Shown one piece after another: positions 1,008-49,280 of a stretch of DNA of 64,000 nucleotides. The translations under genes were made by a program, and so were the position numbers. Positions within the stretch are counted from its first letter, which is position 1; each line of letters starts with the position of its first letter. Source of the DNA: Streptosporangiaceae bacterium. Its GTDB lineage: Bacteria > Actinomycetota > Actinomycetes > Streptosporangiales > Streptosporangiaceae. The DNA is taken from NCBI GenBank assembly GCA_025934375.1, contig JAICYD010000018.1, forward strand, positions 1 through 64,000. The letters run 5' to 3'. The notes under the pieces are model-generated. The model saw only the letters and a list, made by a program, of their open reading frames with translations. It had not been told where the DNA came from and did no database searches.

Positions 1008-2456
1008 ATGGTGGCGCAGCTGCGGCCGGCGGACCCGGCGACGGTCGGGCCATACCGCCTGCTCGGCCGGCTGGGAGCGGGCGGAATGGGGCAGGTGTTC
1101 CTGGCCCGCTCGCCCGGCGGGCGGCTGGTCGCGGTCAAGGTGATCCGGCCGGAGCTGGCCGACGAGACCGGGTTCCGGGCGCGGTTCGCCCGCGAGGTCG
1201 CCGCCGCGCGCAACGTCAGCGGCATGTTCACCGCCCTGGTCGTCGACGCCGACCCCGACGGGGCGGTTCCGTGGCTGGCCACCGCGTACGTGCCCGGGCC
1301 GTCGCTGGCCGAGCTGGTCCACGAGCAGGGGCCGCTGCCGCCGGGCGCGGTGCTGTCCCTGGCCGCCGGGCTGGCCGAGGGGCTGAGCGCCATCCACGCG
1401 GCGGGCGTCGTGCACCGCGACCTCAAGCCGTCCAACGTGCTGCTCGCCCACGACGGGCCGCGGGTGATCGACTTCGGGATCTCCCGCGCGCTGGAGGCCA
1501 CGATGATGACCACCACCGGGATGGTCATGGGATCGCCCGGCTTCATGTCGCCCGAGCAGGCCAAGGGCGAGACGGTCGGGCCGCCCAGCGACGTGTTCAG
1601 CCTCGGCGCGGTGCTCGCCTACGCGGCGACCGGCGAGGGGCCATTCGGGGCCGGGCCGACGCCGGCGCTGCTGTACCGGGTCGTCAACGAGCCGCCGCGA
1701 CTGCAGTCCCTGCCGCCGCAGGTGCGCCCGGTCGTCGAGCACTGCCTGGCCAAGGACGCGGCTGCCCGGCCGACCAGCCAGCAGCTGCTCACCCAGCTCG
1801 GCGGGGCCGACCTGTCCACCGACTGGCTCCCGGCGCAGCACACCCACGCGCTCGCGCAGTACGCCGCGCCCGTCTCCACCCCCGTCTCCGGCGAACGGCA
1901 GCAGGCGTCGTCGACGTCCGCGCCGGACTCGGCCCCCCGGGCCGTCGCCACCGACATCGCCAGCCCGCCTCCGGGTCGCTTCCCCGGCGGCCCCGCCCAC
2001 GGCAGCCCGGTCCCGGTCAGCCCGCCGGGGGGCCTCGCCCCCGCCCAGCCGGGCCAGCCGCGCCCGAGCCGGCGCAAGCCACTGATCCTGTCGGCGGCGG
2101 CCCTCGCCGTCGCCGCGATCATCGCCGTGGTGGTGATCTTCACGCTGGATTCCCCCGCCACCTTCAACGGCAACGTGAAGATCACCGACTTCAACGGAGC
2201 GCAGGCGGTCGCGTGCGGGACCCCGGCCTCGGGACCCCCCGGCGGCGGCGTGGTGATCACGCTGGTCAACAACAGCCCGGCCCCCATCACGGCCACCGGG
2301 CTCGGCAACGGTTCCGTGATCTCAGTGCCCGCCCATGACACGAAGAACGTCGGGGCCCTGGCCAACGCGATCTGGCGGGTATCGGGGCAGCAGCAGCCCT
2401 GCGTCAGCGACTTCAAGATTCTCGCCAACAGCCGGATCGTCATCGCGGCCGCGTGA
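1008..2456 (+). CDS. Membrane-anchored Ser/Thr protein kinase (PknB/AfsK type)
   Basis: The protein has 482 residues. The Gly-loop GRLGAGGMGQV lies near 20-30, the VAVK lysine at 44, HRDLKPSN near 136-143, DFG near 155 and SPEQ in the activation segment, so all catalytic residues are present. A Pro/Ala-rich juxtamembrane stretch leads to one TM helix near 358-380 and a small extracytoplasmic domain with two cysteines (CGTPAS and QPCVS) that could form a disulfide. The in-frame ATG at 1008 follows an RBS-like cggaggcg; an ATG at 945 would add 21 poor residues. The next gene starts 31 bp downstream and is probably co-transcribed, so its product may be a partner or substrate. Confidence 0.9.
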   Translation: MVAQLRPADPATVGPYRLLGRLGAGGMGQVFLARSPGGRLVAVKVIRPELADETGFRARFAREVAAARNVSGMFTALVVDADPDGAVPWLATAYVPGPSLAELVHEQGPLPPGAVLSLAAGLAEGLSAIHAAGVVHRDLKPSNVLLAHDGPRVIDFGISRALEATMMTTTGMVMGSPGFMSPEQAKGETVGPPSDVFSLGAVLAYAATGEGPFGAGPTPALLYRVVNEPPRLQSLPPQVRPVVEHCLAKDAAARPTSQQLLTQLGGADLSTDWLPAQHTHALAQYAAPVSTPVSGERQQASSTSAPDSAPRAVATDIASPPPGRFPGGPAHGSPVPVSPPGGLAPAQPGQPRPSRRKPLILSAAALAVAAIIAVVVIFTLDSPATFNGNVKITDFNGAQAVACGTPASGPPGGGVVITLVNNSPAPITATGLGNGSVISVPAHDTKNVGALANAIWRVSGQQQPCVSDFKILANSRIVIAAA

Positions 2457-2487
2457 CCGGCCCGTCGACCTCATAGCAGGAGAGCCG

Positions 2488-5004
2488 ATGACCTCGTGGG
2501 TCACGTGGGGGGTTTTCGTCGTGGTGGCCGTGGCGCTCGGCGTCGTCGGCAACTACTTCAGCATCCGCACGCTGCGCCTGTTCACCGTCGCCACCGCGCT
2601 CGTGCTGGTGGTCGCGGTCACCGAGTACGGCCTGACCCACCCGGCCAGTACCCCGCAGGCACCGCAGGACCTGCAGACGGCGTTCGCGCGGGGGGCCGAC
2701 GCGATCGCGGCGGCGCTGTTTCACCCGGTGTGGCTGGGCGACTTCCCCGCGCCCGGCCGGGTCGGGTGGATCGTGCTGGGACTGCTGCTGCTGATCGGCT
2801 ACCGGCAGCTGGAGTCGCGGGCGTTCAGGCAGCAGGCCCCGGTGATCGACACCTCGCAGCTGGACCAGGGCCAGCCGAGCATCGAGGCCGACCCGGCCGG
2901 GGTCACCGACGGGCAGCGGCACGACCAGCTCGCGGCCGAGCTGAAGTTCCGGCTCGCCGCGATGGAGGTGCGCTCGCCCGCCATCTTGCCCGGCGGCAGC
3001 CGCACCGACGGGCTGGCCTCGATCGCCGAGGACAGCGGGGTCACCGGCGCCGGCCTGGCCGGCGCGCTGATCCGCTACCTGGGCTCGCTGTGGCCGGCCT
3101 CCCGCCGGTTCCAGCTGCGCTTCTGGGTGGAGCCGTCCGCGCCGCCCAGCGTCGCCGCCGCCACCTCCGGGCACGGGACCAGCGCGGGAAGCGCCGCCCT
3201 GACCGGGGAGACCCGGGTGACCGTCGAGTTGGACGACGCGCGCGGCGGCGTGACGGTGGCGTCCAAGACCGTCGCGGCGGCCGGGCTCAACGAGACGGCG
3301 TCCATGGTCGCCGGGTACATCGCCCGGCAGGTGTTCGCCAGCGATCGCTCAACCCCGCCGTGGTGCTACGGCGCCTCCGACGGGCATGACCTGGGCGCGC
3401 TGCTCATCGCCCGGCAAGAGCGCGTCTACGCGGAGAACTGGGACTCGGTCCGCAGCTCGCGGCTCGCCCAGATCAAGATCCTGCAGACGGTCACCGGCGG
3501 CAACCGGTGCGCCGGGGTGGTCCGCTACGAGCTCGCGCAGCTGCACGACCTGGGCAGCAACCACCTGACCGCGCTGCTCATGCACGCGATCAACCGGGAG
3601 CAGTACCCCCGGTTCTTCCGCGGCCGGTACCGGCTGGGGATGTCGCTGGAGATGGCGGCCAACCGGGGGCTGACGTTCGGGAACCCGGCTGCCGTCCGGT
3701 ACATGCTCACCGAGGTGCTCGAGGTGCTGCAGCGCTGCGGGCTGACCACCACCGCCGAGTGCACCGACAAGGACATCGTCGCCTCCGAGGACGTGGCTGG
3801 CCATCACCGGATCTCCGACGAGCTGAGCATGCAGCTGCTGGAGGCCGCGCGCACCGAGCTGCGGGTCATCCGGCGGCAGCTGGCCTTCGTGGCCGTGCTG
3901 TGGGCGGGGCTGGTGCGCCGCAGCGAGCGCACGGTGTGGCGGCCGCACCGCCAGCTTCGCTACCGCCAGTCGTTCCGCGACGGCGCCTGCGTCGCCGAGT
4001 TGCTCGTCGCGGTGCGCATCCAGCTCAACGAGACCGAAAACCTGCGCCCGGTCAAGGCCTCCCACTACCGGCACGCGCTGCGGGTCGCGGAGGCGATCGC
4101 CGGCGACAGCGCCGCCATTAAGGCCGTCCTGCGAGACGGGGCCGCCGCGAAACCGCCGCCCCCCAAGCCCAATGCCCCCGCGCGCACTGCCCCCACCCGC
4201 GAGCGCGTCCGCAGGCTGCCAGGGATGCCGCACACCGCCTCCTGGCAGGCCGCTTACAACACGGCGTGCCTGTACTCGGTGCTCGCCCAGCACGGCCTGG
4301 CCACCGAGGACCGGATCGTGGTCAGCCTGCAGCGCGCCATCGACAGCAAGGACTCCGAGATGGAGCGGCCCTACGACTGGATCTCCTACGACCCGGACTT
4401 CCTGCCGCTGAAGGCCTCCGGCCGCGACCAGTACCCAGCCTTCAAGAAGTTCCTGCGGGACACCAAGCGCCGCGACTACCCGCGCCGCCCCCGCCCGACC
4501 GACGACCCGCACGAGGGTGACGGCACCAATGGGGCCAGCGACGGCCAGGAGTTACCCGGCATTGATCGCGAGCCAAACGGTGTCAAAGTTTCCTGTGTTA
4601 CCCTCGGGGAGTCAGAATATTCAAGTTTCCCGCTCCGGACGGCTTGCGGACACTTGTCCGGGGCTGCCGTCGTGGGGGAAACTTGCGGCAATTATGTCCC
4701 CTCAAAGCCGAGGCGGTGCGCGCCGTGGGTGCTGCGGAAAAGGCACGAGTTGTTCCGGTCGACGAATTCGTCCGGGAGGAATTGTATCCGGGCTATAAGC
4801 AAGCCTTCGGCAGCCAGCCGTTCGTGGCCGGCCCGCTGCGGCCGTTCAGCACCAGCGATAATTCCCGGTACTGGCTGCGGGACTCGCTGCACTTCAGCGA
4901 GGGCATGGTGCCCGCCAGCATGGCGTTCCTTGACGACGCGCAGACCTGGGGCGCGCAGCTGGGCGCGGAGATCGTCGGCGTGCCGCCCACCCTCGGATCG
5001 GTGA
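2488..5004 (+). CDS. Large membrane protein of unknown function, read-through 3' end
   Basis: The ATG at 2488 follows a clear RBS (aggaga). Three hydrophobic segments lie near residues 4-22, 27-45 and 92-105, followed by a long soluble region rich in helices and Arg (for example RRQLAFVAVLWAGLVRR). No family was recognised. It lies directly behind the kinase and may act with it. The frame stays open to 5004 (838 residues), but convincing coding character ends near base 4550; the rest overlaps the start of the next gene by 289 bp in another frame and passes through an operator-like region. The true C-terminus may have been altered by a frameshift or stop loss. About 690 residues are credible. 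Confidence 0.7.
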   Translation: MTSWVTWGVFVVVAVALGVVGNYFSIRTLRLFTVATALVLVVAVTEYGLTHPASTPQAPQDLQTAFARGADAIAAALFHPVWLGDFPAPGRVGWIVLGLLLLIGYRQLESRAFRQQAPVIDTSQLDQGQPSIEADPAGVTDGQRHDQLAAELKFRLAAMEVRSPAILPGGSRTDGLASIAEDSGVTGAGLAGALIRYLGSLWPASRRFQLRFWVEPSAPPSVAAATSGHGTSAGSAALTGETRVTVELDDARGGVTVASKTVAAAGLNETASMVAGYIARQVFASDRSTPPWCYGASDGHDLGALLIARQERVYAENWDSVRSSRLAQIKILQTVTGGNRCAGVVRYELAQLHDLGSNHLTALLMHAINREQYPRFFRGRYRLGMSLEMAANRGLTFGNPAAVRYMLTEVLEVLQRCGLTTTAECTDKDIVASEDVAGHHRISDELSMQLLEAARTELRVIRRQLAFVAVLWAGLVRRSERTVWRPHRQLRYRQSFRDGACVAELLVAVRIQLNETENLRPVKASHYRHALRVAEAIAGDSAAIKAVLRDGAAAKPPPPKPNAPARTAPTRERVRRLPGMPHTASWQAAYNTACLYSVLAQHGLATEDRIVVSLQRAIDSKDSEMERPYDWISYDPDFLPLKASGRDQYPAFKKFLRDTKRRDYPRRPRPTDDPHEGDGTNGASDGQELPGIDREPNGVKVSCVTLGESEYSSFPLRTACGHLSGAAVVGETCGNYVPSKPRRCAPWVLRKRHELFRSTNSSGRNCIRAISKPSAASRSWPARCGRSAPAIIPGTGCGTRCTSARAWCPPAWRSLTTRRPGARSWARRSSACRPPSDR
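4622..4685 (+). promoter_or_regulatory. Operator-like inverted repeats before the phosphotransferase operon
   Basis: A perfect 10-bp inverted repeat, CAAGTTTCCC at 4622-4631 and GGGAAACTTG at 4676-4685, flanks a smaller perfect palindrome CGGACA-CT-TGTCCG at 4647-4660. A third related copy, CAAAGTTTCC, lies at 4584-4593. The block ends about 30 bp before the likely GTG start at 4716, a natural place for a regulator to act. No clear -35/-10 pair was found. Confidence 0.5.
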
Positions 5005-6503
5005 ACCGGCTGGCCGGCACGCACGTCTACATCGGCACCATCGACGTGGCGACGCCGTGGCAGATCCAGGCGCGGGCGGCTCGCTTCGGCCAGTACGTGT
5101 CGCCGATCCTGGCCGACTTCGACCGCTACTGGTCGATGCGCGCCGGGGAGCTGCAGGCGGCCTACGATCATTTCGATGACCTCGACCTGACGGCGCTCGA
5201 CCCCGCGCACCTGTGGGTCACGCTGCAGGACGCGTACGCGTTCCACCGCCGCGCCTGGTTCATCCACTTCGAGGTCATGTACGTGCTGACCGCCAACTAC
5301 CTCGCCTTCTACGCCCTGGCCGAGGAGATCGGCCTAGAGGGGTCGCAGGTGTCGTCCTTCCTGGCCGGCGAGCAGACGTTCTACGGCAAGACCGACGAGC
5401 AGCTGTGGCGGCTGGCCGCGCGGGCCCGCGAGCTGGGCATCGGCGGCCCGCTGCGCGCGGCCTCGCCGCGCGAGGCCATCAGCCAGATCCAGGCGATGCC
5501 GAACGGAACGAGCTGGCTGTCGGACTTCAACTCCTTCCTGGCCACGTACGGCCAGCGGACGGAGGAGACCTGCCGGATCGACACTCCCTCCTGGATCGAG
5601 GACCCGTCCGCCGCGCTGTACACGATCGGCTCGTTCCTGGCCAAGCCCGCCGGCTTCGACTTCCACGCCGCCCGGGCGGCTGCCGTCGCCGAGCGGGACG
5701 CGCAGATCGACGCCGCCCGCGGCCAGCTCAGCGGCGATAACCTGCAGCGGTTCAACGAGGCCCTGGCTAGCAACCAGGCGGCGAACTTCGCATGGTGGAA
5801 CGAGGAGCACAACTACCTGATCGACCGGCGCGCCGCGATCCCGGCCCGGCGGGTGACGCTGGAACTCGGCGCTCGACTGGCCGCCGACGGCGTGCTGAAC
5901 GCCCCGGATGACCTGTTCTACCTGTTCAAGCCGGAGTTGTTCGGCGTGATGAACAGTGCTTCCGGAAACAATGCCGGCCCCAAATGGGCCGAGCTGACCG
6001 CGATGATCCCGGACCGGCGCGCCTACTTCGAGCACTGGCGGACCCGCGGGCCGGAGCTGCCCACCATGCTCGGCACGATCCCCGACACTGTCCCCGACCC
6101 GATCATGATCGAGGTCTTCGGGCTATCCGGGCACTTCCTGCAGACGCTCAAGGGCGCTGGCGGCGATAAGGGCGAGGCTACCGCGGAGATCCGCGGGTTC
6201 CCGGCCGCCAAGGGCGTCGTCGAGGGCACCGCGAAGGTGATCACCACGGTCGCCGACATCAGCAAGGTGGAGCCGGGCGACATCCTGGTCTGCGGCGGGA
6301 CGACCACCGAGTGGACCCCGGTCTTCGGCATCATCACCGCCTGCGTGTGCGACACCGGCGGCAGCCTGACCCACGCCGCGATCGTCAGCCGCGAGTACGG
6401 CATCCCGTGCGTCGTCGGCACCGCGATCGCCACCCAGGTGATCAAGACCGGCGACCGGATCCGGGTGGACGGCCGGGCCGGCACCGTCCAGGTATTCGCT
6501 TGA
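4716..6503 (+). CDS. PEP-utilising phosphotransferase, substrate plus phosphohistidine subunit (PpsA/CreH-like)
   Basis: The protein has 595 residues. The C-terminal 110 residues are the swivelling phosphohistidine domain of PEP synthase, PPDK and rifampicin phosphotransferase: PGDILVCGGTTTEW, then GGSLTHAAIVSREYGIPCVVG, with the phosphoryl-carrier His near residue 553. The N-terminal 470 residues form a helical region like the substrate domain of rifampicin phosphotransferase. The ATP-grasp domain is missing and is encoded by the next gene, as in phenylphosphate synthase (PpsA, about 70 kDa) and CreHI. The expected reaction is transfer of the ATP beta-phosphate to an acceptor such as a phenol through phosphohistidine, releasing AMP and Pi. 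GTG at 4716 or 4725 is the likely start. The acceptor is inferred. Confidence 0.8.
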   Translation: MRAVGAAEKARVVPVDEFVREELYPGYKQAFGSQPFVAGPLRPFSTSDNSRYWLRDSLHFSEGMVPASMAFLDDAQTWGAQLGAEIVGVPPTLGSVNRLAGTHVYIGTIDVATPWQIQARAARFGQYVSPILADFDRYWSMRAGELQAAYDHFDDLDLTALDPAHLWVTLQDAYAFHRRAWFIHFEVMYVLTANYLAFYALAEEIGLEGSQVSSFLAGEQTFYGKTDEQLWRLAARARELGIGGPLRAASPREAISQIQAMPNGTSWLSDFNSFLATYGQRTEETCRIDTPSWIEDPSAALYTIGSFLAKPAGFDFHAARAAAVAERDAQIDAARGQLSGDNLQRFNEALASNQAANFAWWNEEHNYLIDRRAAIPARRVTLELGARLAADGVLNAPDDLFYLFKPELFGVMNSASGNNAGPKWAELTAMIPDRRAYFEHWRTRGPELPTMLGTIPDTVPDPIMIEVFGLSGHFLQTLKGAGGDKGEATAEIRGFPAAKGVVEGTAKVITTVADISKVEPGDILVCGGTTTEWTPVFGIITACVCDTGGSLTHAAIVSREYGIPCVVGTAIATQVIKTGDRIRVDGRAGTVQVFA

Positions 6504-7780
6504 TCCCCGGCCCGGTCGGTGCTGGCCCGGGGGGGCGACCCCGCGGAGCATCATCCGTACCCCCCGTCCTTGACCTGCCCGGCATCCGGATCAGCGATGC
6601 CGGGCGGGTCGGCCCGAATGTCGCCCGGCTCGGCCAGCTCGCACAGGAGGGCTGGCGGGTGCCCGACGGGTACGCGGTTACCGTCGACGCGCTGGCCGGC
6701 TGGCTGCCGCCGGCCGCCCGCGCGGAGCTGGACCAGCTGCTGGCCAGCGGCCCGGAAGCCAGCACGGAGCATCCGCACCGCAGGCACCATGAGCACGAGG
6801 CGCACCACCGGCACCTCGCGCTCGTCGCCGGGCGGGCACGCGAGATCATCGAGGACCAGCCGCTCCCCGCCTGGCTGGCCGACGCGGTCGCGGCCGCGCA
6901 CGCGCGGCTGGCCAGCCGCACCGGGCGCGGGGCGGCGCTGAAGGTCGCGGTCCGGTCCAGCGCCGCAGCCGAAGACGGGGCGAGCGCCAGCTTCGCCGGG
7001 CAGTACGCCACCTACCTCGGCGTCACCGGCCTGCCGGATGTCCTCGGCGCTATCCGCAGGTGCTGGGCCAGCGGCTTTTCCGCGCACGCGCTGGAGTACC
7101 GGCGCCGCGCCGGGAGCGCTGGCAGTTCCGGGGGCACAACGATCGAGGATCACCGGCTGGCGGTCGGGGTACTGGAGCTGGTCGACGTCCGCTCGGCCGG
7201 GGTCGTGTTCACGATGGACCCGGTCTCCGGGGACCGGGACCGGCTCATCGTCGAGGCGAACTGGGGCTTTGGCGAGTCCGTCGTTTCCGGGCAGGTCACT
7301 CCCGACCACTGGGAAGTCGACCGGTCCAGCGGGCGCGTCCTGGCCGAGCACGTCTCGGCCAAGGGCTCCTGGTCGGTCTTCGACGACGACGCCGGCGTGG
7401 TGGCGCTGCGGCCGCTGCCGACGGAGCTGGCCGGGCAGGCCAGCCTGTCCGCGCAGGAGGTCGGCTACCTGTGCCAGGCGGCGGTCAGGATCGAGGCCGC
7501 CGCCGACGGCGTGCCCCAAGACGTCGAGTGGGCGATCGCGCGCGGGCTGCCGTTCCCGGACAGCGTCTACATCCTGCAGCACCGGCCGGAGACGACCTGG
7601 GCACCAGGGCAGCGAGGCGCGGTCCCGGAAGACCGGGATCCCGCTCCCCCAGCCGCCCCCGAACCGGATCCGAGGGCCCCGGATCCGACCCCGGATCCGA
7701 AAGCCCCGGATCCGAGAGCCAAGGCGTACGACCCGGTCGCCTACGCGCTGCGTAACGTCTTCCGGGTACCGGGAGCATGA
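6500..7780 (+). CDS. PEP/pyruvate-binding ATP-grasp subunit (PpsB/CreI-like)
   Basis: The protein has 426 residues. It matches the PPDK N-terminal ATP-binding fold: WRVPDGYAVTVDAL near the start, the Arg-containing VAVRSSAAAEDGASASFAGQ, LELVDVRSAGVVFTMDP, then EANWGFGESVVSGQ and DVEWAIARG. No phosphohistidine domain follows, so it must work with the preceding subunit. The only sensible start is TTG at 6500, overlapping the previous stop as TTGA, which implies coupled translation. The N-terminus (GPGGRPRGASS) derives from a palindromic repeat at 6526-6566. The last 60 residues are Pro/Asp-rich (DPRAPDPTPDP) and probably disordered. Confidence 0.8.
   Translation: MIPGPVGAGPGGRPRGASSVPPVLDLPGIRISDAGRVGPNVARLGQLAQEGWRVPDGYAVTVDALAGWLPPAARAELDQLLASGPEASTEHPHRRHHEHEAHHRHLALVAGRAREIIEDQPLPAWLADAVAAAHARLASRTGRGAALKVAVRSSAAAEDGASASFAGQYATYLGVTGLPDVLGAIRRCWASGFSAHALEYRRRAGSAGSSGGTTIEDHRLAVGVLELVDVRSAGVVFTMDPVSGDRDRLIVEANWGFGESVVSGQVTPDHWEVDRSSGRVLAEHVSAKGSWSVFDDDAGVVALRPLPTELAGQASLSAQEVGYLCQAAVRIEAAADGVPQDVEWAIARGLPFPDSVYILQHRPETTWAPGQRGAVPEDRDPAPPAAPEPDPRAPDPTPDPKAPDPRAKAYDPVAYALRNVFRVPGA
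6526..6566 (-). repeat. GC-rich palindromic element, copy 1
   Basis: Read on the minus strand, this block is nearly identical over about 40 bases to 8008-8050: CGGGGGGTACGGATGATG, then the shared GCGGGGTCGCCCCCCC core. It lies just after the TTG start and is translated. It belongs to the same family as 8008-8059 and 60484-60525. Confidence 0.75.
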
Positions 7781-8631
7781 GCCCGGACCCGCTGACCGTC
7801 GCCGAGAACGCCGCGCGGGCCGGCGGCGCGGTGCTGATGCGCTGGCTCGGGGATGACGACCTCGTAGTCGCCTACAAGGACGCCCGCGCCAACCTGGTGA
7901 CGGTGGCCGACCAGCAGTCACAGGAAGCCGTTACGCGGGAGATCCTCGCGGCCTTTCCCGGTCACGTGATCATCGGCGAGGAAGGCACGGCCGGGAGCGC
8001 CGGCTCCCCGGGGGGCACGGATGATGCCCCGCGGGGTCGCCCCCCCGGGGGATACGCCCATGAGTGGTACGTCGACCCGCTCGACGGGACCACGAACTAC
8101 ACCCACGGACTGCCGTTCTTCTGCGTCTCGGTGGCGCTGCGGGCGGCGGGGGCCACGGTGGCCGGGGTCGTCTACGACCCGCTGCACGACGAGCTGTTCT
8201 CCGCCGCGCGGGGCGCGGGCGCCTTCCGCAAGGGCCCTGCTGGCCAAAGCACTGCGCTGCGCGCGTCGGCCACCGCGCGGCTGGAGCGGTCGCTGGTGGT
8301 GGCGCAGGCGCAGTCGGTCGACCCGGCCGAGATCCGCGCGTACGCGGTGCTAGTGGAGCGGCTGATGCACGTCGCGGGAGGCGTGCGGTCCCTCGGGTCG
8401 CCGGCGCTGACGCTGTGCGCGATCGCCGCCGGACGGCTGGAGGCGTACTGCGAGTACGCGATGGACGCCTGGGACATCGCGGCCGGCCAGCTGATCCTGG
8501 AGGAGGCCGGCGGACGGCTGACGACGTTCACCGGCGCGCCGCACACCTCCGCCGACCGCGCGGACGTCGTGGCGACCAACGGGCTGATCCACGATGAACT
8601 GATCACGGCACTGAAGGGGCTACCCGCATGA
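7777..8631 (+). CDS. Inositol-monophosphatase-family phosphatase
   Basis: The protein has 284 residues and carries the family's metal-binding motifs: GEE near 67-69, the WYVDPLDGTTNY signature and a C-terminal WDIAAGQLILEEAGG. It should be a Mg-dependent, Li-sensitive phosphomonoesterase. The ATG overlaps the previous stop (ATGA), tying it to the split phosphotransferase; it may remove the phosphate from a phosphorylated intermediate, although free inositol phosphates or PAP cannot be excluded. About 18 extra residues (GGTDDAPRGRPPGG) between the GEE and DPLDGT motifs derive from the palindromic element at 8008-8059. Confidence 0.85.
   Translation: MSPDPLTVAENAARAGGAVLMRWLGDDDLVVAYKDARANLVTVADQQSQEAVTREILAAFPGHVIIGEEGTAGSAGSPGGTDDAPRGRPPGGYAHEWYVDPLDGTTNYTHGLPFFCVSVALRAAGATVAGVVYDPLHDELFSAARGAGAFRKGPAGQSTALRASATARLERSLVVAQAQSVDPAEIRAYAVLVERLMHVAGGVRSLGSPALTLCAIAAGRLEAYCEYAMDAWDIAAGQLILEEAGGRLTTFTGAPHTSADRADVVATNGLIHDELITALKGLPA
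8008..8059 (+). repeat. GC-rich palindromic element, copy 2, inside the phosphatase gene
   Basis: The sequence begins CCGGGGGGCACGGATGATG and ends CCCGGGGGATACGCCC. The first 40 bases match the minus strand of 6526-6566, and the ending CTCCCGGGGGATAC-GCCC is shared with 60484-60525. It is read in-frame as GGTDDAPRGRPPGGYA, in a loop that is shorter in ordinary family members. Confidence 0.75.
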
Positions 8632-9680
8632 GTGACTACCAGTTCCCGTCCGCGCTGGCGGTGACCACGACTGGCGGCTGGGCGCGGCCCGGCTGGTGGG
8701 ACATCATCGATGAGGCGCGCAAGGATAGAACTCCGTCTGGCCGGTTCGGCCCCGCCGACAACCGGGAGTTCCTGGACGACGCGTGCGAGCTGGCGATCCG
8801 CGACCAGGAGGCGGCCGGGCTGGACATCCTCACCGACGGGGAGCACCGCCGCGGCGGCTGGATCGAGGGGCTGACCGGGAACATGCCGGGCCTGCGCGTG
8901 AAGCCGGCGCCACGCAAGCTCGGCGCCATCGGCTGGGACCAGCTCCCGGTGTATGAGGTGATCGCGCCACTGGACGGCATCGAGTCGATCTGGGATTTCA
9001 CCGGCGAGTATGAGTTCCTGAGGGCGCGGACGTCGCGGCGCCCCAAGATCGGGATGCCGGGGCCGTACGGGATCACGACCGAGCTGGACTTCTCGCCGAC
9101 CTACCGAACCCGGCGGGAGTGCGCCGACGCGCTGGTGCCGGCGATCCGGGCTGACATCAAGAAGCTGGTCGCGGCGGGCTGCGACTACATCCAGATCGAG
9201 GAGCCGCTGACGCCCTCGCACGCCGCCGAGGACCGGACGCCGGAGAACCTCGTCGAGGTCATCAACAGCGTGGTCGACGGGATCACCGGGTGCACGTTCG
9301 TGGTGCACATCTGCTTCGGTTCGTTCCGCCGGCTCCCCTACGCCAAGCGGACGTACCGGTGGCTGTTCCCGGCGCTGCTGGACGCGAACGTGCACGGGTT
9401 CTCGCTGGAGTTCGGCGCGCGGGAGATGGCCGAGATCGACCTGGTCGGCACGTGGGACCGCGACCGGATCCTGTCGGCGGGCCTCATCGACATCAAGACT
9501 CATTACAGCGAGGCGCCCGAGGACATCATCGAGCGGGTGCGCGCCTGCCTGCAGTACCGCGATCCCGACAAGCTGGAGATCTCCACCGACTGCGGTCTGC
9601 GCCGGGTTCCCCGGTACCTGGCGATGAGCAAGATGTCGGCCGCCGCCGAGGCCGCCCGGCGGCTGCGCCAGACGGGATGA
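8628..9680 (+). CDS. Core MetE-like zinc methyl/alkyl-transferase (cobalamin-independent Met synthase II family)
   Basis: The protein has 350 residues and corresponds to the catalytic C-terminal barrel of MetE alone. Zinc ligands are visible: H227 and C229 in VVHICFG and C322 in STDCGLR; EEPLTPS provides the expected acidic stretch. The N-terminal folate-binding half of MetE is missing, so it is more like core-MetE or epoxyalkane:CoM-transferase-type enzymes than a housekeeping methionine synthase. It overlaps the phosphatase as ATGA. In this operon it may remove or transfer a methyl or alkyl group of the substrate to a thiol; that is inference. Confidence 0.8.
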   Translation: MSDYQFPSALAVTTTGGWARPGWWDIIDEARKDRTPSGRFGPADNREFLDDACELAIRDQEAAGLDILTDGEHRRGGWIEGLTGNMPGLRVKPAPRKLGAIGWDQLPVYEVIAPLDGIESIWDFTGEYEFLRARTSRRPKIGMPGPYGITTELDFSPTYRTRRECADALVPAIRADIKKLVAAGCDYIQIEEPLTPSHAAEDRTPENLVEVINSVVDGITGCTFVVHICFGSFRRLPYAKRTYRWLFPALLDANVHGFSLEFGAREMAEIDLVGTWDRDRILSAGLIDIKTHYSEAPEDIIERVRACLQYRDPDKLEISTDCGLRRVPRYLAMSKMSAAAEAARRLRQTG

Positions 9681-9687
9681 CAAGCCA

Positions 9688-11139
9688 GTGAGCGATCAGG
9701 TGGACGTGCTGATCGTGGGGGCCGGGCTGTCCGGCATCGGGGCGGCCCGGCACCTGCAGTCAGCGCTGCCCGCCCGCAGCTACGTGATCTGGGAGGCACG
9801 GGCGGCGATCGGCGGGACCTGGGACTTGTTCCGCTACCCGGGCGTGCGCTCCGACTCGGACATGCACACGCTGGGCTACCGGTTCCGGCCCTGGGCGTCC
9901 GCGGCGGCGATCGCGGACGGGCCGGCGATCTTGCGGTACGTCCGCGACACCGCGGCGGAGGCCGGAGTTGACGGCCGCGTCCGGTTCGGGCACCGGGTGG
10001 TCTCCGCCGCGTGGTCCAGCGAGCGGGCCCGGTGGACGGTGACCGGCACCCATGACGGGCAGCCGGCCAGCCTCACCTGCCGGTTCCTGTACCTGTGCAC
10101 CGGCTACTACCGCTACGACGGCGGGTACGAGCCCTCGTTCCCTGGCCGCGAGGGGTTTCGCGGCGCGATCGTCCACCCGCAGCACTGGCCCGCCGACCTG
10201 GACTACGCCGGGCAGCGGGTTGTGGTCATCGGCAGCGGCGCGACCGCCGTGACGCTGGTCCCGGCGCTGGCCGGGCAGGCCGCGCACGTGACGATGCTGC
10301 AGCGGTCGCCGTCGTACATCGCCGCCTTGCCCGCCACCGACAAGATGACCGCCGGGCTGCGACGGGTGATCGGCGAGCGCGGCGCGTACGCGGCCACCCG
10401 GTGGAAGAACATCACGCTGCAGTCCCTGTTCTACCGGCTCGCCCGCCGCCGTCCGCAGCTGGTGCGCGGGCTGCTGCGGAAGGCGACGATGGCCCGGCTG
10501 CCGCCCGGCTACGACGTCGACACGCACTTCCGGCCGCGGTACCAGCCGTGGGACCAGCGGCTGTGCCTGGCGCCCGACGGAGACCTGTTCCGCGCGATCG
10601 GCCAAGGCCAGGCGTCGGTGGTCACCGACGCGATCTCGTCGTTCACGCCCGATGGCCTGCGGCTGGAGTCCGGCGCGACGCTGGCGGCCGATATCGTCGT
10701 CACCGCGACCGGGCTGCGGCTGCTGGCCCTGGGCGGCATCACGCTGTGCGTCGACGGGCGCGAGGTGAAGCTGCCGGAGACGCTGGCGTACAAGGGCGTG
10801 ATGCTCAGCGGCGTGCCGAACTGCGCGTTCACCTTCGGGTACACGAACGCGTCGTGGACGCTCAAGGCCGACCTGGTCGCTGAGTACGTGGTGCGGCTGC
10901 TGCGCTACATGGCAAGGCGCGGCTACGACAGCTGCGTGCCGGTCAACGCCGATCCCCGGGTCACCGAGCGGCCGCTGCTCGACTTCACCTCCGGCTACAT
11001 CCAGCGCTCGCTGCACGAGTTCCCGAAGTCCGGCTCCCGCGCGCCCTGGCGGGTCGTCATGAGCTATCCCAGTGACCTGCTCAAACTGCGTTACGGACGG
11101 ATCAGCGACGGCGCGCTGCGGTTCACGCGCCGTCGCTGA
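9688..11139 (+). CDS. Flavin-containing / Baeyer-Villiger-type monooxygenase
   Basis: The protein has 483 residues. The N-terminal FAD motif is VGAGLSGIGAARHL, the NADPH motif near 174 is VVVIGSGATAVTL, and between them lies FRGAIVHPQHWP, an exact fit to the class B fingerprint FxGxxxHxxxW(P/D). It should insert one oxygen atom from O2 using NADPH and FAD, hydroxylating or oxidising a ketone, amine or aromatic side chain. The GTG start lies 7 bp after the previous stop, so it closes the operon starting at 4716. The substrate is unknown. Confidence 0.85.
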   Translation: MSDQVDVLIVGAGLSGIGAARHLQSALPARSYVIWEARAAIGGTWDLFRYPGVRSDSDMHTLGYRFRPWASAAAIADGPAILRYVRDTAAEAGVDGRVRFGHRVVSAAWSSERARWTVTGTHDGQPASLTCRFLYLCTGYYRYDGGYEPSFPGREGFRGAIVHPQHWPADLDYAGQRVVVIGSGATAVTLVPALAGQAAHVTMLQRSPSYIAALPATDKMTAGLRRVIGERGAYAATRWKNITLQSLFYRLARRRPQLVRGLLRKATMARLPPGYDVDTHFRPRYQPWDQRLCLAPDGDLFRAIGQGQASVVTDAISSFTPDGLRLESGATLAADIVVTATGLRLLALGGITLCVDGREVKLPETLAYKGVMLSGVPNCAFTFGYTNASWTLKADLVAEYVVRLLRYMARRGYDSCVPVNADPRVTERPLLDFTSGYIQRSLHEFPKSGSRAPWRVVMSYPSDLLKLRYGRISDGALRFTRRR

Positions 11140-48074: not shown

Positions 48075-49280
48075 ATGCCGGACCGGATACTGACCAGCCA
48101 CGCGGGGAGCTTGCCCCGCCCTGAGGACCTCATCACCTTGAACAGCCAGCGGGCGGAGGGCACGTTCAGCGACGAGGCGCAGTACCAGCGGAAGCTGAGC
48201 GAGGCCGTCACCGACGTGGTCCGCAGGCAGCGCGACATTGGAATCGACCTCCTCAATGACGGCGAGTACGGCCACTCGATGGGCGTGCGCTACGACTACG
48301 GGACCTGGTGGACCTACGTCTTCCCGCGCCTTTCTGGCCTGGAGCTGGCGGAGCTGACGCTCCTCGACATCCCGCAGGCGGCGCCCAAGCCCGGAGCGGT
48401 CAAGCTGGGCAGCTTCGCCGACCGGCGCGACTGGAACGAATTCCTAGACGCCTACTCCGACCCCCAGTCGGGCGCCGCGCTGCCGAACCCGCCGACGCTC
48501 GCTCCCGTCTGCCGGGGTCCCATTAGCTACGTCGGCCACGCTGACGTCCAGCGGGACATCGACGACATGAAGACCGCGATGGCGGCGGCGGGGCTGACGC
48601 AGGGATACCTGAACTCGGTCGCCCCGGCCAGTTGCGCCCGGATCGGCAACACGTTCTACGCCGACGACGAGGAGCTCATGTACGCCTGCGCGGACGCGAT
48701 GCGCGAGGAGTACCAGGCCATCATCGACGCCGGACTGATCTTGCAGCTTGATGACCCCGCGATCGCCGAGAACTGGGATCAGGTCAACCCCGCGCCGACC
48801 GTCGAGGACTACCGGCGGTTCACCCAGGTCCGGGTGGACGCGCTGAACCACGCGATCCGCGGGCTGCCCGCCGAGCGGATCCGCTTCCACCTGTGCTGGG
48901 GAAGCTGGCACGGCCCGCACACCACCGACATCCCGATGGCCGACATCGTCGACCTGATGCTGGCGGTCAATGCCGGCGGGTACTCCTTCGAGGCGGCCAA
49001 CGTGCGGCACGGCCACGAGTGGAAGGTCTGGCGGGACGTCAAGCTCCCCGAGGGCAAGGTCATCCTGCCCGGCATCGTCAGCCACTCCACCAACGTGGTC
49101 GAGCACCCGGAACTGGTGGCCGACCGGATCTGCCAGTTCGCGGAGGTGGTCGGCCGGGAGAACGTCATCGCCTCGACCGACTGCGGCCTCGGCGGCCGCG
49201 TGCACCCGCAGATCGCCTGGGCGAAGCTGGACACCCTGGCGAAGGGCGCCGAGATCGCCACCCGGCGCCTGTGGGGGTAG
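48075..49280 (+). CDS. Second core-MetE-type protein (cobalamin-independent Met synthase II family)
   Basis: The protein has 401 residues. ILTSHAGSLPRPEDLITLNS at the start; zinc ligands are H272 and C274 in FHLCWGSWHG, and C370 in STDCGLGG. The folate-binding half of true MetE is missing. The fold is shared with epoxyalkane:CoM transferases, so alkyl transfer to a thiol is likely. RBS GCAGGAGG lies before the ATG at 48075; upstream extension to 48003 is unlikely. It stands alone and is closed by a strong terminator at 49307-49337. It is a distant relative of the 8628 gene. Confidence 0.82.
   Translation: MPDRILTSHAGSLPRPEDLITLNSQRAEGTFSDEAQYQRKLSEAVTDVVRRQRDIGIDLLNDGEYGHSMGVRYDYGTWWTYVFPRLSGLELAELTLLDIPQAAPKPGAVKLGSFADRRDWNEFLDAYSDPQSGAALPNPPTLAPVCRGPISYVGHADVQRDIDDMKTAMAAAGLTQGYLNSVAPASCARIGNTFYADDEELMYACADAMREEYQAIIDAGLILQLDDPAIAENWDQVNPAPTVEDYRRFTQVRVDALNHAIRGLPAERIRFHLCWGSWHGPHTTDIPMADIVDLMLAVNAGGYSFEAANVRHGHEWKVWRDVKLPEGKVILPGIVSHSTNVVEHPELVADRICQFAEVVGRENVIASTDCGLGGRVHPQIAWAKLDTLAKGAEIATRRLWG

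Follow-up and report, generated by a model that had tools for sequence, protein, structure and literature searches.

Which pathway is encoded by a gene run in which the two subunits of a small-molecule dikinase are followed by a phosphatase, a MetE-like enzyme and a flavin monooxygenase? The five genes, here called A to E, lie on one strand near the start of a 64,000-nucleotide stretch of DNA (the window; contig C111 of G000, a Streptosporangiaceae genome of 7.4 Mb close to Trebonia). An earlier reading of the letters (the sequence-only reading) had proposed that a phenol is phosphorylated, oxidised and dephosphorylated here. Its five open reading frames (ORFs), their coordinates, lengths and couplings proved correct to the base; the start codon of A is corrected to GTG. 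The answer preferred here, held tentatively and at somewhat less than an even chance, is that the two-component dikinase A/B phosphorylates a substrate, D takes a methyl or alkyl group from it for transfer to a thiol, and C then removes the phosphate. The features are as follows (positions in the window, + strand).

4716..6503, +: A, phosphohistidine (swivel) and substrate-binding subunit of a two-component dikinase (PF00391; RPH-like model; 595 amino acids)
6372-6374, +: phospho-acceptor His553 of A, invariant in 48 homologues
6500..7780, +: B, ATP-grasp subunit (PF01326; TTG start overlapping the stop of A; 426 amino acids)
6617..6619, +: Asn40 of B (codon AAT), where homologues have the ATP-binding Lys (Lys22 of RPH/PPDK)
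7777..8631, +: C, phosphatase of the inositol monophosphatase (IMPase) family (PF00459; 284 amino acids)
8628..9680, +: D, core-MetE-like zinc alkyl/methyltransferase (PF01717; model compared with MesD; 350 amino acids)
9688..11139, +: E, type-I Baeyer-Villiger-like flavin monooxygenase, a window-specific neighbour (Pfam, PDB match list, fingerprint; 483 amino acids)

The A/B coupling is TTGA, those of B/C and C/D are ATGA, and 7 bp lie between the stop of D (9680) and the GTG start of E (9688).

The two kinase subunits

Pfam gives only PEP-utilizers for A (PF00391, 5.7e-21, residues 519-589) and only the ATP-grasp domain for B (PF01326 PPDK_N, 2e-70). The phosphohistidine motif (GGxxxH test) is intact in A as DTGGSLTHAAI, with His553 as the acceptor. 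The best full-length sequence matches of A in NCBIfam were PRK08296 models, all well under cut-off (273, 219, 190 and 170 bits, with curated cut-offs of 578, 693, 650 and 723); HpeH-, CreH- and PpsA-type proteins exceed at least one of these cut-offs (785, 1168 and 1300 bits). An AlphaFold2 model of A (mean predicted local distance difference test score (pLDDT) 68.7, eight-row alignment, first 110 residues poor) matched rifampin phosphotransferase (RPH; PDB 5fbt) with a Z score of 23.8 over 439 residues at 20% identity, in the RIF-binding and swivel domains. The same fold relation to RPH has already been published for HpeH. The best solved relative of B was 9goj (E=3.8e-52), which is, according to its authors, HpeI of the two-component hydroxyphenylethanone kinase (PMC12167813).

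Reference genes were taken from annotated plasmids: ppsAB-type genes from Azoarcus (beside ppcABGD), cre-type genes from two Rhodococcus (with P450 and ferredoxin) and hpe-type genes from Rhizobium (with biotin carboxylase and HAD phosphatase). The three reference A proteins are 43-45% identical to one another and 26-30% to window A; for B the corresponding values are 41-51% and 34-36%. In the A tree (RPH-like outgroup), A belongs to an 11-row clade (support 100/100) that is sister to a 31-row clade holding all reference phenol kinases (96/89), and hence lies outside it. In the B tree, B belongs to a nine-row clade (100/98) placed, with weak support (84/92, 91/94), among the partners of the phenol kinases. 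A and B thus branch deeply, in the A tree as the sister group of the PpsAB/CreHI/HpeHI kinases and in the B tree from among them. The DPWF motif of the phenol kinases is YGxR in the window A clade and in RPH, whereas the HFE and E-x-H motifs are common to the A clade and the phenol kinases and are lacking in RPH. Both two-component clades lack the catalytic Arg, and mostly also the Lys, of the REXXK of RPH (block 9, Arg666-Glu667-Lys670), which reads NEEHN in A.

Regarding the characterised systems, HpeHI of Rhodococcus rhodochrous GD02 is likewise split into ATP-grasp and phosphohistidine/substrate subunits, has the same fold and is followed by a dedicated phosphatase. The window proteins are 30% (A) and 34% (B) identical to the Hpe-type pair tested; compared with the hpe operon, the window operon has no biotin carboxylase, carries an IMPase in place of the HAD phosphatase and adds the MetE-like D. 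PpsAB and CreHI have the same split and the same phosphohistidine motif, at 26% (A) and 36% (B) identity, whereas A has no DPWF and the window operon no ppc carboxylase, P450 or HD-domain phosphohydrolase. RPH-Lm shares with A the fold, the YGxR motif and the swivelling phosphohistidine domain, but is a single chain where A/B are two, and the Arg and Lys of its REXXK are Asn in A. On the last two grounds A was rejected as an RPH, and family cut-offs and the A tree argue against direct membership in PpsAB/CreHI/HpeHI. A PEP synthase, PPDK or housekeeping role was rejected because Pfam found no domain binding phosphoenolpyruvate or pyruvate in A or B, the phosphohistidine domain is C-terminal and the best solved relative of B is HpeI.

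As judged by sequence, A/B is built like HpeHI and probably lies outside the characterised phenol kinase family; by analogy it probably also works like HpeHI. The split-kinase architecture described in the sequence-only reading was thus borne out, the nearest characterised relatives being HpeHI and, by fold, RPH, and not a true PEP synthase. Of the PpsAB/CreHI-like phenol route the split kinase stands, whereas the phenolic substrate is a guess, since A falls outside the clade in the A tree and failed the family cut-offs.

One residue sets window B apart: Asn40 replaces a Lys found in 39 of the 39 homologues in which the region is covered, including four Trebonia orthologues, so the change is peculiar to the window copy and is no trait of the lineage. 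In RPH-Lm the exchange Lys22Ala abolished activity (PMC4844700). The ratio of nonsynonymous to synonymous substitution rates (dN/dS) of window B is not elevated relative to its orthologues, so Asn40 may reflect a mistake in the assembly, a change that has been compensated, or a loss that happened recently.

The phosphatase and the MetE-like enzyme

C is an inositol monophosphatase-family protein (PF00459 Inositol_P, 9.5e-60; best PDB match 5zhh, 1.5e-47) with both metal motifs present (DPxDGT and WDxxAG tests), as DPLDGTTNY and WDIAAGQLILEEAGG. An IMPase gene (42-43% identical to C) also stands beside A-clade relatives in two Acidimicrobiia metagenome-assembled genomes (MAGs; L040, L041), and a HAD phosphatase beside those in L042 and L103.

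D matches Meth_synt_2 (PF01717, 5.8e-21). Its structure model (mean pLDDT 67.5, five-row alignment) aligned with MesD (3rpd) with a Z score of 31.1 across 317 residues, and all zinc ligands of the MetE barrel are kept (His227, Cys229, Glu261 and Cys322). Price and colleagues list a Ser, a Glu and an Asp as homocysteine contacts (PMC7857596); in D and four orthologues these positions are Trp18, Glu72 and Glu191, i.e. Ser is replaced by Trp and Asp by Glu. In the tree, D has a branch to itself (100/100), separate from those of MesD and EtnE. D was rejected as a MesD on account of Trp18 and Glu191, the tree and a score of 109.4 bits with a MesD-model cut-off of 392; D shares fold and the four zinc ligands with MesD but differs at the homocysteine contacts, and neither MesX (DUF1852) nor an MTHFR gene was found next to it.

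The EtnE proteins of the alkene plasmids of JS614 and NBB4, which we take to be EtnE from their alkene-monooxygenase neighbours, are also MetE-fold zinc alkyltransferases, about 28% identical to D. They carry Asn and Lys at the first two homocysteine-contact positions and form a separate branch (96/97), and the window has no alkene monooxygenase genes; thiol-site residues and tree exclude D as an EtnE. We infer that D is a putative zinc-thiolate transferase with a changed thiol acceptor or a changed acceptor pose.

Among the papers searched, none was found to describe a dikinase accompanied by a MetE-like gene. Three other MetE-like subfamilies were found near two-component kinase genes, at 68 bp (G488), about 0.1 kb (G470) and 1.4 kb (G011). 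In three further lineages, MetE-like genes thus accompany such kinases at a distance of less than 2 kb, with 0.16 expected (P ~6e-4); the expectation is a rough Poisson estimate from MetE-like counts per genome, excludes the window genome and applies to a sample gathered by similarity to A. This suggests a recurring functional link between MetE-like genes and two-component kinases. The claim that a MetE-like enzyme is new to this context was therefore narrowed: the enzyme is present beside the kinase, but the three other subfamilies also adjoin such kinases.

Regarding further MetE-like genes, one more lies inside the window (48663-49211). In the same genome (L072, G000:C144, 6152-10969), an MTHFR-like gene, a gene of no recognised kind, a MetE-like gene and metK stand in a row (by reading), likely an alternative methionine/S-adenosylmethionine cluster. 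In Aminobacter sp. MSH1 pUSP2 (L125), a MetE-like gene is flanked by hydrolase and citryl-CoA lyase, CoA-transferase and extradiol dioxygenase genes, which is another catabolic setting for the MetE fold.

Conservation and genomic setting

Trebonia kvetii (L036) and two MAGs (L037, L038) share the A-B-C-D order, with identities to the window of 77-78% (A), 54-60% (B), 64-67% (C) and 82-84% (D); in a fourth Trebonia MAG (L035) A-B run up to the contig end. The dN/dS values were 0.12-0.20 for D, 0.22-0.31 for A, 0.22-0.35 for C and 0.30-0.52 for B; A to D are under purifying selection. Phosphatase and MetE-like gene share an operon with the kinase in several genomes, in support of the sequence-only reading.

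E did not prove part of this set. It is FMO-like in Pfam (8e-11), Baeyer-Villiger monooxygenases (BVMOs) top its PDB match list, and it carries the type-I BVMO fingerprint FxGxxxHxxxWP/D as FRGAIVHPQHWP. D is not followed by an E homologue in L036, L037 or L139, and the nearest such homologue (70%) is in G093, a genome without A-D. E was rejected as a member of the conserved module on this synteny. Of the five-gene order, A-B-C-D is conserved in the three Trebonia genomes and E is absent from the set, which leaves the flavin monooxygenase step, and with it a route of phosphorylation, oxidation and dephosphorylation, unsupported.

D orthologues were present in five of the eight genus members searched (window genome counted) and in one distant genome, G536, and in none of the other searched members of the family. 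In G536 (L070, C31, 8486-11330), C and D are neighbours with no A-B adjacent, and next to them comes a second MetE-like gene, from a different subfamily; the G536 D nests near the Trebonia D, which suggests horizontal transfer. A-clade members were found in 0 of 66 genomes of the class of G536, and at a looser level ten were found in 299 genomes of the class of G261, mostly in other contexts. In L040 and L041, A and the IMPase gene occur without B.

Upstream of A, the near-identical genome G137 (L039 1584-2176) has about 480 bp that are missing at window 4534-4645, which is why ORF 2335-5004 runs on into the beginning of A. A DUF6918 gene lies upstream of A in L037 (9222-9704, Pfam) and L038 (7654-8106, read by eye), and a membrane-like protein without Pfam match comes after D in two Trebonia relatives, L037 (14825-15463) and L139. 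Elsewhere in the window genome (L046, G000:C148 9000-24224) lies an hpe-type cluster of kinase subunits, carboxyl carrier, biotin carboxylase, carboxyltransferase and HAD phosphatase (most of these identified by reading), whose B-type gene was scored with one internal TGA.

Candidate pathways and significance

The preferred pathway would run as follows. B would bind ATP and His553 of A would take the beta-phosphate, with release of AMP and Pi; A would then swivel and phosphorylate a hydroxyl of a small organic compound, probably a growth substrate that is aromatic or otherwise hydrophobic. D would most likely act on the phosphorylated compound, handing on methyl or another alkyl group to an acceptor thiol that would bind otherwise than homocysteine does in MesD, and C would remove the phosphate last. 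Both kinase steps are drawn from homology to HpeHI and RPH, those of D and C from operon structure only. Several observations weigh against this pathway. Window B has no ATP-site Lys, so that this copy may be inactive. A shows low identity to the characterised phenol kinases (26-30%) and has no DPWF. The C-D pair alone in G536 and the A-IMPase pairs without B in L040 and L041 mean that linkage of the four genes is not obligatory. The window genome has 17 copies of MetE-like (Meth_synt_2) genes, a strong expansion, and the count of co-occurrences of such genes with kinases is small and rough. Finally, the operon itself gives no pointer to the substrate: the BVMO and a transporter in the window and LigAB in L035 are only hints as to its class, the last a weak one because unrelated genes intervene.

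Among the alternatives, the route of the sequence-only reading, in which A/B would phosphorylate a phenol for oxidation by E, D would act in turn and C would take the phosphate off again, is very improbable. The position of E, 7 bp past D on the same strand, and the precedent of CreHI, which opens a cresol pathway and has a P450 in its gene clusters (PMC12167813; the cre-type order was also seen here), speak for it, but the relatives have no E homologue after D, and the genome with the closest one has no A or D orthologue. That A/B is instead a natural-product kinase (for resistance, self-protection or biosynthetic activation, cf. RPH and the PigC/RedH ligases), C and D then being tailoring enzymes, is unlikely, too, if less so. 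The fold match of A to RPH, the YGxR kept as in RPH and lost from the phenol kinases, and the PigC and RPH models that also score on B are consistent with it, as is a large polyketide synthase-like gene (identity by reading) about 10 kb downstream of D on the contig of L037 (L140). Against this, A differs from RPH at the catalytic Arg and Lys of block 9 and groups with the phenol kinases against RPH (96/89), a phosphatase within the operon would reverse a resistance modification, and no conserved biosynthetic genes were found nearby.

The remaining two alternatives concern D. It could serve one-carbon salvage, in which methyl groups set free by other reactions are used to make methionine (or a methylated thiol), so that the phospho-intermediate is not its substrate; MesD and MetE are methionine synthases (PMC7857596), and a D-like paralogue stands between the MTHFR-like gene and metK on C144 (L072). 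The homocysteine-binding Ser and Asp are, however, Trp and Glu in D, with Trp fixed in all five orthologues, and D adjoins neither a MesX nor an MTHFR gene, which makes this reading an unlikely one as well. A bolder version of the preferred pathway, in which a phosphorylated hydroxylated aromatic or related compound would be demethylated or dealkylated by a cobalamin- and folate-independent MetE-fold zinc-thiolate enzyme using a thiol other than homocysteine, and then dephosphorylated, with different MetE-like subfamilies repeatedly recruited by two-component dikinases, is speculative and would be rather surprising if it held in full.

The subfamily of two-component small-molecule dikinases was delineated only recently, and every characterised member named in the cited papers acts on simple phenols. 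The operon represents a deep uncharacterised branch of these dikinases with its own type of phosphatase and a MetE-like partner with an altered thiol site. As Trebonia kvetii, a named strain, carries A-D, the pathway can be tested. If D indeed acts on a phosphorylated intermediate, the MetE fold would gain a new chemical role, and there would be a new answer to the question of why catabolic pathways spend ATP on the phosphorylation of their substrates.

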